From Chloracidobacterium thermophilum B (lineage in GTDB: Bacteria; Acidobacteriota; Blastocatellia; Chloracidobacteriales; Chloracidobacteriaceae), in the NCBI RefSeq assembly GCF_000226295.1, contig NC_016025.1, forward strand, positions 744,001 through 808,000: 64,000 nt of DNA, read 5' to 3'. Below, in pieces: positions 7,760-60,880 of this stretch. The position numbers were made by a program, and so were the translations under genes. The notes below the pieces were generated by a model. It made no database searches. It was not told the origin of the DNA and worked only from the letters and a program-made list of their open reading frames with translations. Within the stretch, counting starts at the first letter, position 1, and each line of letters opens with the position of its first letter.

Positions 7760-7773
7760 GGCTACTCTCCCCC

Positions 7774-7971
7774 CTACTGGATGTCACCGGTGGTCTTCGC
7801 AGGTGTGGCCGCGAGGCCCTTCCCTGACCGCAGGACTGCCTGCCGGCAGCCACAGGCGGAGGTGCAGCCTGGCGCTGGCGACTGCCACGCCCGTACGGCC
7901 TGCCACGCACGGTGGAGCAAGAAACCGGCTGCCCCGGCGACAACCATCAGGCTGATCCAATCCTGCATCAT
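7774..7971 (-). CDS. Small single-pass membrane protein with Cys cluster
   Basis: A predicted 65-residue protein with one hydrophobic helix (around DWISLMVVAGAAGFLLH) followed by a cytoplasmic tail containing CTSACGC. The layout resembles small FeoB-associated Cys-rich membrane proteins, but no feoB is adjacent. The start at 7971 (or the ATG immediately after it) is supported by AGGAAA upstream; the longer frame reaching 8166 shows no coding character in its first half. It sits directly upstream of clpS and is probably transcribed with it. Function unknown. Confidence 0.5.
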   Translation of the reverse strand: MMQDWISLMVVAGAAGFLLHRAWQAVRAWQSPAPGCTSACGCRQAVLRSGKGLAATPAKTTGDIQ

Positions 7972-8365
7972 CGGTTTCCTTTCCCTGACCGGTATCCCCA
8001 ATCGCCGTACATCACGCCAAGACATCCCTGGCGGCCCCGGTCTCCAGCCCACATCAGCCGCCCACACCTGCTGATTCGCCCAAGCAGGTACGACTTCCCC
8101 ATAATTTCTACCTATGTGGTCATTCCAAGTAAACCATCCCCGGCTGGCTCGCTGCCTGCGGAACACGGTACGCAGACCAACCGACAGAAGCCTGGTTGGT
8201 GACTATTGTCCTGTGTCAAGCGCGTGTCGTGTCTCCACATTGCAGCCCCCGATGGACATGCCGCGCGAAAGTGATGCACGGGCTGGTTATGTCTGCTAAC
8301 GTACCCACCCGACGTCATGTTCACCACGGCGAAACGGTTGTGTACGGACACAGTTTCGCCCGCTC
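7972..8365. other. 394-base divergent intergenic region
   Basis: No gene is supported here. It separates the clpS unit (minus) from the ABC1-kinase gene (plus) and should contain both promoters. The only clear structure is an inverted repeat, ACCAACC at 8176-8182 and GGTTGGT at 8194-8200 (11-base loop), without a T-run on either strand; it could be an operator. Confidence 0.45.
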
Positions 8366-9922
8366 ATGGTAGCTATGTCCGCGCAGACGCTCGATGCTCC
8401 GGTTCTTTCGCGCGCGTTATCACTTGGTGAAAACCTGCGCCATCTACGACGCTTTGTTGTCGTCTCCATCGCGCTTTTGCCGTTTCTGGTCAGCTTTCTG
8501 CGCGACCGGCGGCGGTGGATCAAGTGGGGCGCTCCGCGCACACTGACAGAGGAGCAGCATGCCCGTCGCGCCAAAAAGCTGGTGGATACCTTTGCCCGGC
8601 TGGGAACGTCATACATCAAGCTGTCGCAAATCCTGGCTGTACGGGAGGACCTGATTCCCAAAACTTATGCGCGGGAATTTGCCCGGCTGCTTGACCAGAC
8701 CCCGGCGGCCGGCATGGACTACGTCAGCGCCGTCATCCGTCGCCGCACGGGCAAAAACCCGGAGGACATCTTCACCGACTTCAATCCCAACGCCATTGCC
8801 TCGGCATCAGTCGGGCAAGTTCACCGGGCGCGGTACAAGGGCGTTGATGTCGTCGTCAAAGTCCGGCGGCCCAACGTGGTGGAAACCATCACCCTCGACA
8901 ACGCCATCCTGAGTACGCTGCTGGAGTGGCTGCGGCCGTTTTTTGGCGAGCACTACCTGTACCGCGGCTTTGAAGTTCTGTTTACGGAATATAAGCGGAT
9001 TGTCGTTGGCGAACTGGACTTCCGCATCGAAGCACAAAACGCCGAGCGTCTGCGCGCCCAACAGCCCCGGCATCCCCGGCTGGTCATCCCGGAAATTGCG
9101 CACGAACTGACCTATGAAGACCTGCTTGTGATGGAGTTCTGTGAGGGGGTGCGGATTGACGCGGTGGAGACCATTCGCAGCTATGGTCTCGACCTTGGCG
9201 AACTCGTCGAAGCCCTGCTCGAAATCGTTTTCTCACAGCTTCTCGTCCACGGCTTTTTCCATGCCGATCCCCATCCGGGGAACATTCTCATCAACCGCCG
9301 GGGCGACATCATCCTGCTCGACTACGGCATGGTGGACGAACTCGACCCGGTGACGCGCGACCGGTTTCTGGGCCTTATCCTGGCCGCCAACGCCAATCAG
9401 TACGACGAAGTGGTGGCCAAGCTCTATGAACTGGAGATGGTGGCCCCGGATACCCCGGCCGAGCAACTGACCTACGTGACGGAAACCATCATGAACCTGC
9501 GGCACCTGGCGCGTACCAACCAGCGCCAGGTTCAGATGGCCGTCGAGCAGCTTTTCGAGAAAACGCGCATCCTGCATCACCTGCGCATGCCCCGGCAGAT
9601 GGTGTATCTGTTTCGGATGGCGACACTTATCGAAGGCGTGGCGATCCGCTTCGACAATCACTTTGACAGCATTCGGGACGCGGTTCCGATTGCCAAGCGG
9701 GTTGGGTTCAAACTTATTGCCCGCATTGTGCCGGCCGCCACGGCCCTGCGCTATGCGGCGGAAGTCTTTGCCGAGCGGTTTGATGCCTACCTGAGCCGGG
9801 TGATGCAGCGCAAAAAGGTCTCCTATGCCAAGGATTTCGTACGGCGTATGTGGCAGGGCACGCCGGACAAAACCGTGGTGTCGGCGCCCACGCCACCACC
9901 CAGCCTGACGCTGCCTTCCTGA
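8366..9922 (+). CDS. ABC1/UbiB-family atypical protein kinase-like protein
   Basis: A 518-residue member of the ABC1/UbiB/ADCK family, linked in other organisms to isoprenoid-quinone synthesis or lipid homeostasis. It has the Ala-rich loop ASASVGQVHRA, the catalytic-loop motif HADPHPGNILIN and the metal-binding LLDYGMV. The N-terminal family motif KxGQ reads K-L-S-Q (in GTSYIKLSQILAVREDLIP). C-terminal residues near 440-465 could contact the membrane. Two possible ATG starts are nine bases apart (8366 and 8375). Ubiquinone itself is unlikely in a futalosine-pathway organism, so a menaquinone or lipid role is more plausible. Confidence 0.88.
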   Translation: MVAMSAQTLDAPVLSRALSLGENLRHLRRFVVVSIALLPFLVSFLRDRRRWIKWGAPRTLTEEQHARRAKKLVDTFARLGTSYIKLSQILAVREDLIPKTYAREFARLLDQTPAAGMDYVSAVIRRRTGKNPEDIFTDFNPNAIASASVGQVHRARYKGVDVVVKVRRPNVVETITLDNAILSTLLEWLRPFFGEHYLYRGFEVLFTEYKRIVVGELDFRIEAQNAERLRAQQPRHPRLVIPEIAHELTYEDLLVMEFCEGVRIDAVETIRSYGLDLGELVEALLEIVFSQLLVHGFFHADPHPGNILINRRGDIILLDYGMVDELDPVTRDRFLGLILAANANQYDEVVAKLYELEMVAPDTPAEQLTYVTETIMNLRHLARTNQRQVQMAVEQLFEKTRILHHLRMPRQMVYLFRMATLIEGVAIRFDNHFDSIRDAVPIAKRVGFKLIARIVPAATALRYAAEVFAERFDAYLSRVMQRKKVSYAKDFVRRMWQGTPDKTVVSAPTPPPSLTLPS

Positions 9923-51836: not shown

Positions 51837-51847
51837 ATTGACATACT

Positions 51848-51867
51848 CCCCTGCCTAAAGGCAGGGG
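51848..51867. repeat. Right-end hairpin of the IS element
   Basis: CCCCTGCC and GGCAGGGG enclose TAAA, 12 bases after the stop of the peptide transporter gene. It may also serve as a terminator for that gene. In related elements this end is part of the TnpB guide (omega) RNA. Confidence 0.75.
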
Positions 51868-51991
51868 ATTCTTGTTCTTGGTTCTGCGAGCGCACTTACT
51901 TCATCAGGTTGCCCCTCTAAAGCAGCAGTGCATCTCTCCCCAAGCGTTCCCTCTTTCGAGGCAGTTCCCTTTTGCCCAAAGGTACTGTAGT

Positions 51992-52106
51992 GGCGAGTAG
52001 CAAATAGCGAACAGGGAGCGAGTAGCGAGCAGCGAGTAGCGAGTAGCGAATTACCTTCCGAACCACTCGCCACTCGCCTCTGAACCACTCGCCACTCGCC
52101 ACTCGC
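51992..52106. repeat. Facing heptad repeats inside the IS element
   Basis: The left half (51992-52050) consists of degenerate GCGAGTA heptads; the right half (52061-52106) consists of CACTCGC heptads, which are close to the reverse complement. Together they could form an imperfect stem of several turns. They sit exactly where the last part of tnpB should be, just past its premature stop. Confidence 0.8.
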
Positions 52107-52132
52107 TTCCTTATTGAGGACAACTATGGGTT

Positions 52133-53158
52133 CTAGTGGATAGGGTTTTTACTACCATAATGCCCACAGTTACTACAGTCCTGTGTGGTGTACTGCGGCG
52201 GTACGCTGACTACTGCCTTGTCCCACACCTTGCCGTAGTAGTCCAGCCACGCAGTGAATTGAGACCAGCCAGCATCATGAATGGATTTGGCAAGATGATG
52301 ATTTTTGACCAGGTTCTTCACCTGCAAGTCTTCATACGCCACGACATCGTGAGATGCCACCACGCACCGTGCCTGCTTAATTGCCCAGTCTTTACGCTGG
52401 CGTTGGACTTTCAGATGCACTTTGCCCAGTCGCTTTCTTTGCTTGTGGTAGTTCTTGGATTGGGATTTTGCCCCCTTCTTGAACTTCCGACTTAATCTGC
52501 GCTGGTGTTGCTTTAACCTTCTTTCACTACGCCTCAAAAACTTAGGATACTCTACAGGGTTGCCGTTCTGGTCGGTGTAGAAAGCCTTCAAGCCCAAGTC
52601 AATGCCAATAACATTGCCTGTGTATGCTCCCTGCTCTTTGCGCTCCACATCCAGGCAGAACTGAGCATAGTACCCATCTGCCCTGCGTATCACCCGCACC
52701 CGATTGATTTTGGAGTTTAGGATATGGTGTCTTGCCTCACCATTGCAGTACAGAGCAAAAGCACCAGCATTGAAGCCATCAGTGAAGGTGATAGACATTC
52801 CATCTCCTGACAGCTTCCAGCCAGATACCTTGTATTCCACAGAACGGCAATGCTTCTTGAACTTGGGATACCCTTTCTTGACCGCCTTGTTTCTGCAGTT
52901 GGTATAGAACCGGGAAATGGAAGCCCAAGCTCGCTCTGCACTTGCCTGCCTTGCCGCTGAGTTTAACTTCTTGACAAAGTCAAACTCTTTGGCCAGGTCT
53001 TTGCAGTGGGCATAGAGAACAGCTTTGTTTACACTCTTGTTGTCCATCCAGTACCGCACACATTTGTTTCTGACAAACTGTGCGGTACGGATGGCTTCAT
53101 CCAGAGCCTGATACTGCTCTGCTGTCCCGTTTAGTAGCTTGGCTTCCATTACTCTCAT
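52133..53158 (-). CDS. tnpB: Truncated TnpB/IS1341-type RNA-guided nuclease
   Basis: A 341-residue IS200/IS605 OrfB protein. RuvC-I Asp is in GIDLGLKAFY and RuvC-II Glu in VVAYEDLQVKNL; the helical basic domain (RRLKQHQRRLSRK) and the first half of the zinc finger (DCSNCGHY) are present. It then stops after GSKNPIH: the second CxxC of the zinc finger and the RuvC-III DRDxNAA motif are absent. A remnant of the expected C-terminus (KGTASKEGTLGERC ... LAEPRTRIPCL) can be read further downstream on the same strand. TnpB is a guide-RNA-directed nuclease in intact elements; this copy should lack DNA cleavage. Confidence 0.85.
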   Translation of the reverse strand: MRVMEAKLLNGTAEQYQALDEAIRTAQFVRNKCVRYWMDNKSVNKAVLYAHCKDLAKEFDFVKKLNSAARQASAERAWASISRFYTNCRNKAVKKGYPKFKKHCRSVEYKVSGWKLSGDGMSITFTDGFNAGAFALYCNGEARHHILNSKINRVRVIRRADGYYAQFCLDVERKEQGAYTGNVIGIDLGLKAFYTDQNGNPVEYPKFLRRSERRLKQHQRRLSRKFKKGAKSQSKNYHKQRKRLGKVHLKVQRQRKDWAIKQARCVVASHDVVAYEDLQVKNLVKNHHLAKSIHDAGWSQFTAWLDYYGKVWDKAVVSVPPQYTTQDCSNCGHYGSKNPIH

Positions 53159-53209
53159 ACTGCTATTTTATCACAGGTTTGGCTTGATAAAACAGCGTGC
53201 GCCTTATAT

Positions 53210-53229
53210 CCCTGCCCTAAAGTGCAGGG
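53210..53229. repeat. Left-end hairpin of the IS element
   Basis: CCCTGC (53210-53215) and GCAGGG (53224-53229) enclose CCTAAAGT, followed by CTTTACGGCG, matching the usual left end of IS605-group elements. It lies about 20 bases upstream of the next gene's first possible start. Confidence 0.7.
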
Positions 53230-53251
53230 CTTTACGGCGTTTTTTCGGTAA

Positions 53252-54358
53252 ATGCTACCGGACGAATTGGTGCAGAAGCTCATGGCAGGACTGAAACCAA
53301 CAACCTCTCCACAAACTTCCTTTGCCCGGCGCTATCCCTTCGCAGCGCGTCTGCTGCGGGTAGGCCTCGTGCTGTTCACCTTGGGACTGCTCGGCTATGT
53401 CGGCGCAGGCGTTTACTTCTACACCCGTCAGCATGCCATGGTGTTCCGTCCTGTCGCCCGTGGGGAACAGGCCCGGCGGCAGGTGGCGGCGCCGCTGGGC
53501 GCAAGCTACGTCACGTTTTCAGCGGCGCGGGGCGAGACCATTACGGCGTTGTTCGGCCCGGCGCTCGACGAACACGGCGACCGGGTGCTTCCCGATGCCG
53601 CCCGCCGCCCGACCCTGCTGTTCTTCTACGGCGTCGGCGAATACCTCAACTATCCGTTTCTCCGCAATCAGATAGAAGTCTTCCGCCGGGCCGGGTTCAA
53701 CGTTCTGGTGCCGGAATACATCGGGTTGGGACTCAGCAGCGGAGAGCCAAGCGAACAGGGGCTGTATGACACGGCGCTGGCTGCCTTTGAATATCTCAAA
53801 CGGCGGCCGGACGTTGACCCGCAGCGGATTTTCATCGTCGGGCATTCACTGGGCGGCGCGCCGGCCGTGGATTTGGCGGCGCGGGTGCAGCCGGCCGGAC
53901 TGATGACCCTGGCCACCTTCACCTCCCTGCCCGATATTGCCGCCCTGCGCTACCCGATGTTTCCCTGCCACTACCTGACGCGCATCCGCTGCCCGAACGT
54001 CGAAAAAATCCGGCAGGTGCGCGCGCCGATTCTCATCCTGCATGCCGAAAACGACACGACTGTGCCGCTCTGGATGGCCGAGGCGCTGACCAAAGCGGCC
54101 TTTGAAGGCGGCAATCAGCAGGTGGTGCAGATCACCATCCCCAGCGGGAATCACGACACGATCTTTGCCCTGCCCAAGGGGGAGGCTGTCCGCGCCATGC
54201 AGGCGTTTGCCGGGATTGCACCTGTGACCCCAGAGAAGGGCCGCCCGGAGACGCCGCAACCGGCTCAGGCCGCCGGCGGTGTCGGGTCCACACCTTCCGC
54301 TGCTGTCCGCAACATTGCTGTCGGGACGACCACCGCGGCCACAATGAACAGGCAGTAG
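53252..54358 (+). CDS. Membrane-anchored alpha/beta hydrolase (BEM46/ABHD13-like)
   Basis: A 368-residue protein with one N-terminal transmembrane helix (about residues 35-57) and a hydrolase domain: oxyanion FFYGVGEYL, nucleophile elbow VGHSLGGAPAV (Ser about 197), acid in LHAENDTTVPLW, and His in SGNHDTIF. It resembles the BEM46/ABHD13 family of membrane-associated serine hydrolases. The start could be the ATG at 53252 or at 53282. The IS element ends only a few bases upstream, so the native promoter was probably displaced. The last 94 bases overlap a convergent membrane-protein gene. Confidence 0.8.
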   Translation: MLPDELVQKLMAGLKPTTSPQTSFARRYPFAARLLRVGLVLFTLGLLGYVGAGVYFYTRQHAMVFRPVARGEQARRQVAAPLGASYVTFSAARGETITALFGPALDEHGDRVLPDAARRPTLLFFYGVGEYLNYPFLRNQIEVFRRAGFNVLVPEYIGLGLSSGEPSEQGLYDTALAAFEYLKRRPDVDPQRIFIVGHSLGGAPAVDLAARVQPAGLMTLATFTSLPDIAALRYPMFPCHYLTRIRCPNVEKIRQVRAPILILHAENDTTVPLWMAEALTKAAFEGGNQQVVQITIPSGNHDTIFALPKGEAVRAMQAFAGIAPVTPEKGRPETPQPAQAAGGVGSTPSAAVRNIAVGTTTAATMNRQ

Positions 54359-58981: not shown

Positions 58982-59116
58982 GCGCAGCACCAGTCAGACA
59001 CAGGAACGGCCGGGCGGGCGGCAGCACCGGATTACTTTTGCCCGTCCCGCCGGCGCCAAAACCCGTCGTCCCGTGACGGCCATCGGGCAGCCACGGGTGA
59101 TGTGGGAGAAACCATC

Positions 59117-60268
59117 ATGAGCGAACGTGGAACCCCCCGGTTCACACGCCTGCAACTTCGCAACTGGAAGAATTTTAGCGACTGCGACGTGGAGATTGGC
59201 CGGCGGCTCTTTCTCGTCGGGCCCAATGCTGCGGGCAAGTCCAACTTTCTGGATGCCTTCCGGTTCCTGCGCGATCTGGCCATTCCCGGCGGCGGCCTGC
59301 AGGAAGCCGTGCGCCGGCGCGGAGGGGTCAGCACCCTCCGCTGCCTGGCGGCACGCCGCTTTCCCGATGTTGAGATAACAGCCACGCTCGAAGTGGCCGA
59401 TCACATCCAGTGGACCTACCAGGTGGCTTTCAACCAGAAGCAGGGCCGCCTGCACCTGCGCAGGGAACAGGTCCGGCGCAACGGAGAGGTCATCCTCGAC
59501 CGCCCCACGGCGGATGACCGGCGCGACCCCGAACGACTGACGCAAACCTACTTGGAGCAGGTCAATGTCAATCAGCCGTTCCGTGAAATTGCCACGTTCT
59601 TTGTCTCCGTACGCTACCTGCACCTCGTTCCCCAACTGGTCAGGGAACCCGACCGCTCGGTGGGACGTGCCCATGACCCCTTCGGCGGCGACTTTCTGGA
59701 GCAGGTGGCCAAGACACCTGCCAAGACGCAGAAAGCCCGGCTGCAACGCATCCAGGAGGCGCTGCAAGTGGCCGTGCCCCAGATGCAGGCCATAGAACTC
59801 TGGCGCGACGCACGGGGCACACCGCACCTGCGCGGGCGCTACCAGCACTGGCGTCCACAGGGGGCATGGCAGACCGAGGAACAGTTGTCAGATGGCACCC
59901 TGCGGCTGCTGGGACTGCTGTGGGCTGTGACAGACGGCACGGGGCCGCTCCTTTTGGAGGAGCCGGAACTTTCCCTGCATCCGGGCATCGTCAGCACCCT
60001 GCCGCAGATGCTGGCCCGCATCCAGCGCCGGAACGGACGGCAGATTTTCCTGAGCACCCATTCGCCCGAACTGCTCCGTGATGAAGGTATTGGCCTGAAT
60101 GAAGTCCTGCTGCTGCTTCCGGCTCTGGAAGGCACAACCGTCACGCCGGCCAGCTCCATCGAAACCATCCGCCAGCTTCTGGAAGGCGGTCTCTCCATCG
60201 CCGATGCTGTCCTGCCCCACACCTCGCCCAGGCACGCGGAGCAACTCATGCTCTTTGGGGAGAGCTAG
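59117..60268 (+). CDS. AAA/ABC-type ATPase of the RecF/OLD-like class
   Basis: A 383-residue ATPase. Walker A is LVGPNAAGKSNFLDAFRFL (G35-S42), the signature region is LSDGTLRLLGLLWA, Walker B is PLLLEEPELSLHPG, and the H-loop is FLSTHSPELL. The compact insert, without a long coiled coil, matches small AAA_21-like ATPases that pair with a separate nuclease. Start ATG 59117 has GGGAGA seven to eight bases upstream. The next gene begins three bases after the stop and encodes a TOPRIM/DUF4276-like protein, a pairing often seen in phage-defence or DNA-repair modules. Confidence 0.85.
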   Translation: MSERGTPRFTRLQLRNWKNFSDCDVEIGRRLFLVGPNAAGKSNFLDAFRFLRDLAIPGGGLQEAVRRRGGVSTLRCLAARRFPDVEITATLEVADHIQWTYQVAFNQKQGRLHLRREQVRRNGEVILDRPTADDRRDPERLTQTYLEQVNVNQPFREIATFFVSVRYLHLVPQLVREPDRSVGRAHDPFGGDFLEQVAKTPAKTQKARLQRIQEALQVAVPQMQAIELWRDARGTPHLRGRYQHWRPQGAWQTEEQLSDGTLRLLGLLWAVTDGTGPLLLEEPELSLHPGIVSTLPQMLARIQRRNGRQIFLSTHSPELLRDEGIGLNEVLLLLPALEGTTVTPASSIETIRQLLEGGLSIADAVLPHTSPRHAEQLMLFGES

Positions 60269-60271
60269 CGC

Positions 60272-60880
60272 ATGCGGGCGAGGATTTACGCGGCCGTTGA
60301 AGGAAAAACGGACAAGGTGGTGGTTGAGCGGCTCATGGTGCATGTCGGGGCTGACGTGGGGCCGGTGTACGTGGCGGAAGGCAAGCCCAATCTCAAAAAG
60401 CGGATTGCTGGTTACAACCAGGCCGCCCAGCATTCCCTGTGGCTGGTTCTGGTGGATTTGGACCGCGACGGCTGTGCGCCGTCGCTGCGGGCCGCCTGGC
60501 TGCCGGAGCCTTCTTCCGGGCTGTGCTTCCGCGTTGCCGTGCACGCCGTCGAAGCGTGGCTGATGGCAGACGCCGAAACGCTCGCCGGTTTTCTGGGCGT
60601 GGCGCGCAGCAACATTCCGGCCAACCCGGAATCGCTGCCCGATCCGAAAGCGACGCTGGTCGGACTGGCGGCCAGCTCACGTCACCGGGACATCCGCGAA
60701 GACATGGCTCCGCAGCCGGGGAGCGGACGGCGGGTTGGCCCGGCTTATACGTCGCGCATCATCGAGTATGCCGGCCAACACTGGCGTCCCGGCACGGCGG
60801 CGCTCCAGTCCGGGAGCCTGGAACGCACCATCCGATGCCTGCGCCGGTTGGCTGCCGGCGCGTTGTCGCCTACGCCGTAA
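60272..60880 (+). CDS. TOPRIM/DUF4276-like protein, partner of the AAA ATPase
   Basis: A 202-residue protein. AAVEGKTDKVVVERL (E10) and LVLVDLDRDG (D62, D64) form the glutamate and DxD motifs of TOPRIM-type nuclease/primase folds. The HAVEAWLMADAETL segment is typical of DUF4276-family proteins encoded next to small AAA ATPases. It begins three bases after the ATPase gene and is surely in the same transcript. By analogy with OLD-type systems, in which an ATPase and TOPRIM nuclease are joined, the pair may act as an ATP-controlled nuclease; this is inference. Confidence 0.75.
   Translation: MRARIYAAVEGKTDKVVVERLMVHVGADVGPVYVAEGKPNLKKRIAGYNQAAQHSLWLVLVDLDRDGCAPSLRAAWLPEPSSGLCFRVAVHAVEAWLMADAETLAGFLGVARSNIPANPESLPDPKATLVGLAASSRHRDIREDMAPQPGSGRRVGPAYTSRIIEYAGQHWRPGTAALQSGSLERTIRCLRRLAAGALSPTP

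Follow-up and report, generated by a model that had tools for sequence, protein, structure and literature searches.

Two adjacent genes, A and B, in the window (the whole stretch of 64,000 nucleotides from Chloracidobacterium thermophilum B that was analysed) probably form a HEC-01-type two-gene module with a putative role in defence, amounting to an OLD/PARIS protein cut in two, in which an ATPase (A), presumably docked on the replication clamp, would control a TOPRIM nuclease (B). HEC-01 is already known as a catalogued candidate system, and the pair is a further member of it; what is new is the clamp-like tail of A, for which no precedent was found among the matches listed from the open-licence PubMed Central literature. 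The features of the locus are as follows.

58982..59116, + strand: 135-base spacer after a DsbD-like gene, presumed promoter of the pair and putative start site (ORF map).
59117..60268, + strand: gene A, HEC-01A, a 383-aa ABC/SMC-head-like ATPase (PDLC04180, E 3e-158; Pfam; model).
59219..59242, + strand: Walker A of A, GPNAAGKS, residues 35-42 (G35, N37, A38, G40, K41 and S42 invariant, n = 21).
59888..59905, + strand: ABC signature-like SDGTLR of A, residues 258-263 (invariant, n = 21 sequences).
59948..59962, + strand: Walker B of A, LLLEE, residues 278-282 (L279, E281 and E282 invariant, n = 21).
60242..60256, + strand: C-terminal QLMLF of A, residues 376-380 of 383, fitting the beta-clamp-binding consensus given in passages of PMC13254535.
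60272..60880, + strand: gene B, HEC-01B, a 202-aa TOPRIM nuclease-like protein, DUF4276-related (PDLC04194, E 2.8e-64; model).
60299..60301, + strand: Glu10 of B, TOPRIM glutamate (kept in 23 of 24 homologues).
60455..60463, + strand: Asp62-Leu-Asp64 of B, TOPRIM DxD (D62 in 24 of 24; position 64 carries D in 21 homologues and N in the other 3).
60551..60571, + strand: Glu94-Ala-Trp96...Asp100 of B, signature stretch of the family and possible second metal site (E94, W96 and D100 in 24 of 24).

The first-pass annotation had described an AAA ATPase gene and a TOPRIM/DUF4276-like partner three bases apart at 59117-60880, and this layout was confirmed, with genes on the same strand at 59117-60268 and 60272-60880 and a gap of 3 bases. 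Gene A runs from an ATG at 59117 to a TAG ending at 60268, with a GTG at 59102 as a possible alternative start in the ORF listing. The PADLOC search that had been proposed for the pair matched A to the HEC-01A model PDLC04180 (protein residues 8-379, profile positions 2-380 of 382) and B to the HEC-01B model PDLC04194 (residues 3-194 of 202), and the pair is therefore a member of an already catalogued type. Adjacency of A and B on one strand, which we took as the HEC-01 rule, was found here with the 3-base gap. The name stands for Hma-embedded candidate 1 in PADLOC-DB; HECs were introduced by a preprint (doi 10.1101/2024.01.29.577857). Passages of a 2026 archaeal defence paper (PMC12988326) state that several HECs, HEC-06 included, showed antiviral activity, and HEC-01 is listed among defence systems in PMC12724379. 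In the open-licence PubMed Central literature, we found nothing on HEC-01 beyond that list entry and no mechanism for it, and no mention of DUF4276. The existing PADLOC name, as well as the clamp-motif tail of the ATPase, goes beyond the first-pass annotation.

The assignment of A as an AAA ATPase was upheld by a Pfam scan (PF13304, AAA_21, E 5.7e-34) and by its motifs, all of which are intact, namely Walker A GPNAAGKS, the signature SDGTLR, Walker B LLLEEPE and the H-loop STHS, and most of the residues in these motifs showed little or no variation across 21 aligned sequences. The model of A (pLDDT 88.2) has the form of a compact ABC/SMC-head ATPase and aligned with SMC heads, Rad50 heads and PtuA (from Septu and retrons) at Z 19.4-22.1 among the 50 entries listed in the structural alignment. 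The best PDB sequence match of A was GajA (E 8.3e-10), and AriA models in PADLOC matched it at E 2.4e-31 and 4.1e-16, the first of these models having a length and match range identical to those of the generic AAA_21 profile. PARIS membership by way of these AriA models was not accepted. No NCBIfam model reached its cut-off for A or B. Between the window genome and its sister species (G004), dN/dS was about 0.08 for A, about 0.27 (some three times that of A) for B, and about 0.10 for the neighbouring DUF3419 gene. Judged from these substitution ratios, A and B both look to be under constraint, and the values for the two genes argue against chance ORFs.

The partner gene matched PF14103 (DUF4276) at 24.1 bits, under the curated cut-off of 30.2 bits, and its assignment to the TOPRIM fold, together with the earlier view of the pair as an OLD-like ATPase-nuclease split into two proteins, was borne out by its structural neighbours, OLD and AriB. 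The model of B was predicted with a mean pLDDT of 94.6 (AlphaFold2, alignment of 23 sequences). Its top six matches in VIA-align were four OLD C-terminal regions (Z 9.6-9.0; best 6nk8, Z 9.6 over 162 residues at 3.7 A) and two PARIS entries, 8ux9 (Z 8.9) and 8v46 (Z 8.2), which we read as AriB chains, followed by PH0156 (Z 8.1) and Thermus OLD 6p74 (Z 7.8); retron Eco2 appeared at Z 5.8-5.5, among unrelated folds at Z of 6.0 or less. Such Z values are only moderate, and the TOPRIM assignment rests on the pattern of related matches. Foldseek of B against the PDB returned nothing at E <=0.001, with Thermus OLD at rank 49, and a PDB sequence search with B returned one unrelated chain only (E 0.65).

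Loss of the catalytic residues in homologues, which the first-pass annotation had named as an observation that would speak against its proposal, was not found: E10, D62, E94, D100 and K126 were present in 23-24 of 24 homologues, with N at position 64 in 3 of 24. S136, like K126, was present in all 24, and residue 14 was D in 17 of 24. Passages of PMC7049728 on Thermus OLD assign E, D and D to metal A, and the D four residues after that E, followed by S and E, to metal B; E10, D14, D62, D64 and E94 of B resemble these residues when matched by order and rough spacing. B can be described, from its sequence or model, as a TOPRIM domain in which the likely metal-binding residues are retained. The TOPRIM and SMC-head fold assignments would give HEC-01 a definite chemistry, that of a metal nuclease under the control of an SMC-head ATPase.

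The earlier picture of the pair standing alone between metabolic genes is fair, given an acetyl-CoA-synthetase-like gene and the DsbD-like gene upstream and genes for a DUF3419 protein and a methyltransferase downstream (Pfam); in the window, no defence gene adjoins the pair. Of the seven genomes of the genus, three carried A and B together, with two different sites among them, and the pair was not detected in the other four, one of which is only about 85% complete, so that conservation in all relatives at one locus, also named beforehand as an argument against a defence role, was not observed. A search of the contigs with B returned two loci only. The window genome and G004 have the pair at a common site, with identities of 98% for A, 91% for B and 98% for the flanking DUF3419 protein. 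The two blocks that flank the window pair are separated by about 32 kb in G005 and 27 kb in G006, in changed order, and are on different contigs in G001-G003. This arrangement of the flanking blocks in the five genomes places the pair at a junction of rearranged blocks and not in a simple insertion.

The copy in G005 occupies the other site, within about 14.7 kb between two blocks whose counterparts in the window genome are separated by about 100 bases, and lies beside a helicase (best PADLOC match HKD+Snf2) and a type IIG-like methylase. The left flank of this site was present in all seven genomes and the right-hand stretch in two. Between the G005 and window copies, identity is 71% for A and 56% for B, less than for the orthologues of the DsbD-like (83%) and DUF3419 (87%) genes, a difference that points to separate acquisition or rapid divergence. 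In G005, the orthologue of the DUF3419 gene (L028, G005:C2:124548-125777) contains an in-frame TGA. The window genome also carries a transposable element at 51837-53262 (ORF 52133-53158, - strand), which we take to belong to the OrfB/TnpB-like family; since the otherwise approximately 95% identical locus of G004 does not have it, this element, some 6 kb from the pair, probably inserted recently.

Beyond the genus, HEC-01B matches at E <=1e-8 were found in 28 of the 396 genomes of a phylum sample. The two genes travel together: among 55 non-redundant HEC-01A homologues, 46 had B on the same strand, within 60 bases in 44 of these, while for eight a search of about 1.5 kb around A detected no B (L124, L125, L126, L128, L129, L131, L132, L133). 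Hma, restriction, methylase or helicase genes occurred among the four nearest ORFs per side at 8 of 22 loci (L060, L071, L075, L079, L082, L084, L087, L088) in a survey in which 16 of 149 neighbour ORFs were picked by eye for the PADLOC scan; L079 was counted on a UvrD/NERD helicase match alone. At L075, HmaB directly adjoins the pair and HmaC lies a few genes downstream, and L071 has HmaA. For the other 14 loci, 51 ORFs were scanned as one set, one of which (L072) was also in the eye-picked survey, and gave, among the 25 of 36 PADLOC families listed, kinase-type families with one member each; L072 had a weak match to a helicase family (DpdF). The first-pass proposal of a candidate defence module thus agrees with the matches to both HEC-01 models, the patchy occurrence, the second site in a congener and the Hma or restriction neighbours in some relatives.

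In tblastn searches of plasmid and phage collections, neither B (at E <=0.001) nor A (at E <=1e-30 and 1e-15) had a match, and IMG/VR gave one relative only, whose A tail is without the motif; with these results, mobility of the pair is not obvious. No tRNA genes were found in L060, L094, L090 or L059.

Several relatives depart from the two-gene arrangement. Six genomes of the genus g223 (L124, L125, L128, L129, L131, L132) have the ATPase without a detected TOPRIM partner; at L124, the solo A has rlmN on one side and a gene for an M16 peptidase on the other (Pfam), and ORFs with the same starts flank A at L129 and L131. The solo A of this genus is possibly a domesticated orphan ATPase, and its constant neighbours in several genomes of one lineage suggested that some members may serve other purposes than defence. 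A stop codon interrupts the ATPase gene beside the partner gene in L121/L083 (G246), and the ATPase gene is in two ORFs in L147 (G799), reflecting decay or sequencing error in each case. In two genomes of the f16 family (L073, L078), the pair appears to have a gyrA-like gene as its neighbour, the two scanned gyrA-like members being assigned to these loci through similar N-termini; a shared position of this kind would be consistent with vertical inheritance there. An ORF of L089 (G375; 7769-8650, - strand, 293 aa) matches both the HEC-01A profile (81-158) and HEC-01B, as a rearranged or fused remnant.

A ends in ...AEQLMLFGES. The beta-clamp motif is given in passages of PMC13254535 as QL[S/D]LF and, in its revised form, as Q-phi-x-[L/M]-[F/L] or Q-phi-x-[L/M]-x-[F/L], with phi being L, I, V or A. 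Tails were compared in a set obtained from 77 rows by removing 8 duplicates and keeping HEC-01A ORFs above 400 bits (filter HMM built from 22 members) with a closed 3' end, which left 55. Dropped were L076 and L083 (fragments), L146 (contig end), L147 (A in two ORFs), L007 and L054 (no A) and eight distant relatives (L089, L051-L053, L055-L058); the motif was absent from all eight of the latter. The baseline consisted of all 1482 other ORFs of at least 110 aa in the same loci, wrong-frame ORFs included.

The revised consensus lay within the last 20 residues in 31 of the 55 homologues, which are not independent of one another (31 of the 46 with B), as compared with 5 of the 1482 baseline ORFs, one of them the C-terminal A piece of L147, and with 1 of 1011 internal 20-residue blocks of A. 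When the homologues were clustered at 70% identity, 16 of 30 clusters carried the motif. Typical tails were QLSLF, QLDLF, QLALF, QLTLF, QMDLF and similar; the 24 homologues outside the consensus had QMDLF, QRPLF or other near misses, and some had nothing similar. Earlier, looser patterns had given 30 (strict) and 46 (loose) of 55, with 1 and 29 of 1482 in the baseline. In 28 of the 30 strict-pattern tails, the motif was followed by 1-3 residues, and its third position was D, A, T or S in 25. In the model of A, the pLDDT at the tail had block means of 67 and 52 versus 89 before it, and a short helix was assigned to residues 374-379. Among the eight homologues without a detected B, six, from one genus, keep QRPLF, which falls outside the published consensus, L133 has QLDLF 19 residues before its end and was scored as a miss, and L126 has none. 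That QLDLF or QRPLF persists where A has no detected partner speaks against a tail that serves only to bind B.

QVSLF is present in the C-terminal half of the host DnaE. The host dnaE gene lies in two pieces about 1.4 Mb apart (L151:1486-4206 and L152:1345-2697, at about 1.11 and 2.56 Mb of G000:C1), and the first piece ends in a weak match to the intein-splicing family PF14890 (E 0.003, below cut-off), which on sequence grounds suggests a split-intein DnaE.

The clamp motif is a property of this clade of HEC-01A, in which clamp binding is predicted. Among the matches listed in open-licence PubMed Central, no paper joined a clamp-binding motif with phage defence, and none from 2015 onward in the same literature joined one with anti-phage work. 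We tentatively suggest, stopping short of calling it probable, that HEC-01A of this clade is a clamp-docked immune sensor that would place an SMC-head ATPase and a TOPRIM nuclease on replicating DNA, with phage replication or a phage-altered clamp or fork as the trigger. The tail hints at where HEC-01 acts in the cell and at what it senses, and direct coupling of a defence ATPase to the replication clamp, if true, could be tested by a peptide-binding assay and one tail mutant.

In the mechanism that we propose for the clamp-docked module, A would dimerise on ATP, keep B inactive, and dock through its C-terminal Q-L-x-L-F tag onto the replication clamp DnaN, thereby patrolling replicating DNA. 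An abnormal state of replication or recombination brought about by a phage (an unusual fork, ends, a phage clamp or an inhibitor) would alter the nucleotide state of A, which may then free or activate B, and B would cleave nucleic acid, either DNA as OLD does or tRNA as AriB does, halting the phage or the cell. OLD and AriB match the structure of B almost equally well, and we state no preference between the two substrates.

A rather unlikely alternative is that the HEC-01 pair is PARIS-like and works without clamp docking, A binding a phage trigger and releasing B, which would cut host tRNA, while the tail serves as an internal packing or B-docking element. The presence of AriB within about 1 Z of OLD among the best matches of B, the AriA model matches of A and the short helix modelled at the tail are consistent with this; however, no AriB model was among the 13 PADLOC families that B matched up to E 1, the tail is the least confident C-terminal part of the model, and the tail motif is retained where A has no detected partner. 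A repair or genome-maintenance module, in which a clamp-docked Rad50-like ATPase would work with a structure-specific TOPRIM nuclease on stalled forks or mismatched DNA, is unlikely, since the pair is undetected in four of seven congeners, the two lineages use different sites, and Hma or restriction genes lie near it in some relatives, although SMC and Rad50 heads are among the best matches of A, RecB and similar repair proteins carry clamp motifs according to passages of PMC13254535, the solo A of g223 has the same neighbours in the three loci read, and two f16 genomes have the pair beside gyrA-like genes. A toxin-antitoxin-like stabilising cassette, in which A would neutralise B and phage defence would be incidental, is very improbable: it draws on the operon-like layout of two genes, the description of AAA_21 as a putative AbiEii toxin family and the name antitoxin given to AriA in some PDB entries, and the 8 of 55 A genes without a detected B, which count against it, fit an antitoxin outlasting its toxin equally with an independent role.

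Among known systems, the pair is closest to HEC-01 itself, whose A and B models its adjacent genes match near full length. The naming context of HEC-01 is a position in or beside an Hma system, which we took as non-obligatory; the window copy has no Hma gene nearby, unlike its relatives L075 and L071, where Hma genes adjoin the pair. OLD proteins of classes 1 and 2, GajA included, also combine an ABC ATPase with a TOPRIM nuclease, but in a single polypeptide, whereas the window pair encodes two proteins, A ending at a TAG (60266-60268) and B having a start of its own at 60272. The TOPRIM-type domain of OLD appears to be present in B, judging from the alignments of its model with 6nk8 and 6p74 and from the conserved E, DxD and E. 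Gabija differs in having a UvrD-like partner, GajB, and no helicase was found among the two upstream and three downstream neighbours of the window pair that were scanned. In PARIS, the ATPase and the TOPRIM protein are likewise encoded by separate genes, and AriB is the next best structural match of B after OLD; B is, however, shorter (202 aa) than the aligned AriB chains (305-306 residues). Septu, too, has a two-gene layout of ATPase and nuclease, and the model of A is as near to PtuA as to SMC and Rad50 heads, but the Septu partner PtuB is an HNH nuclease, whereas B is TOPRIM-like.
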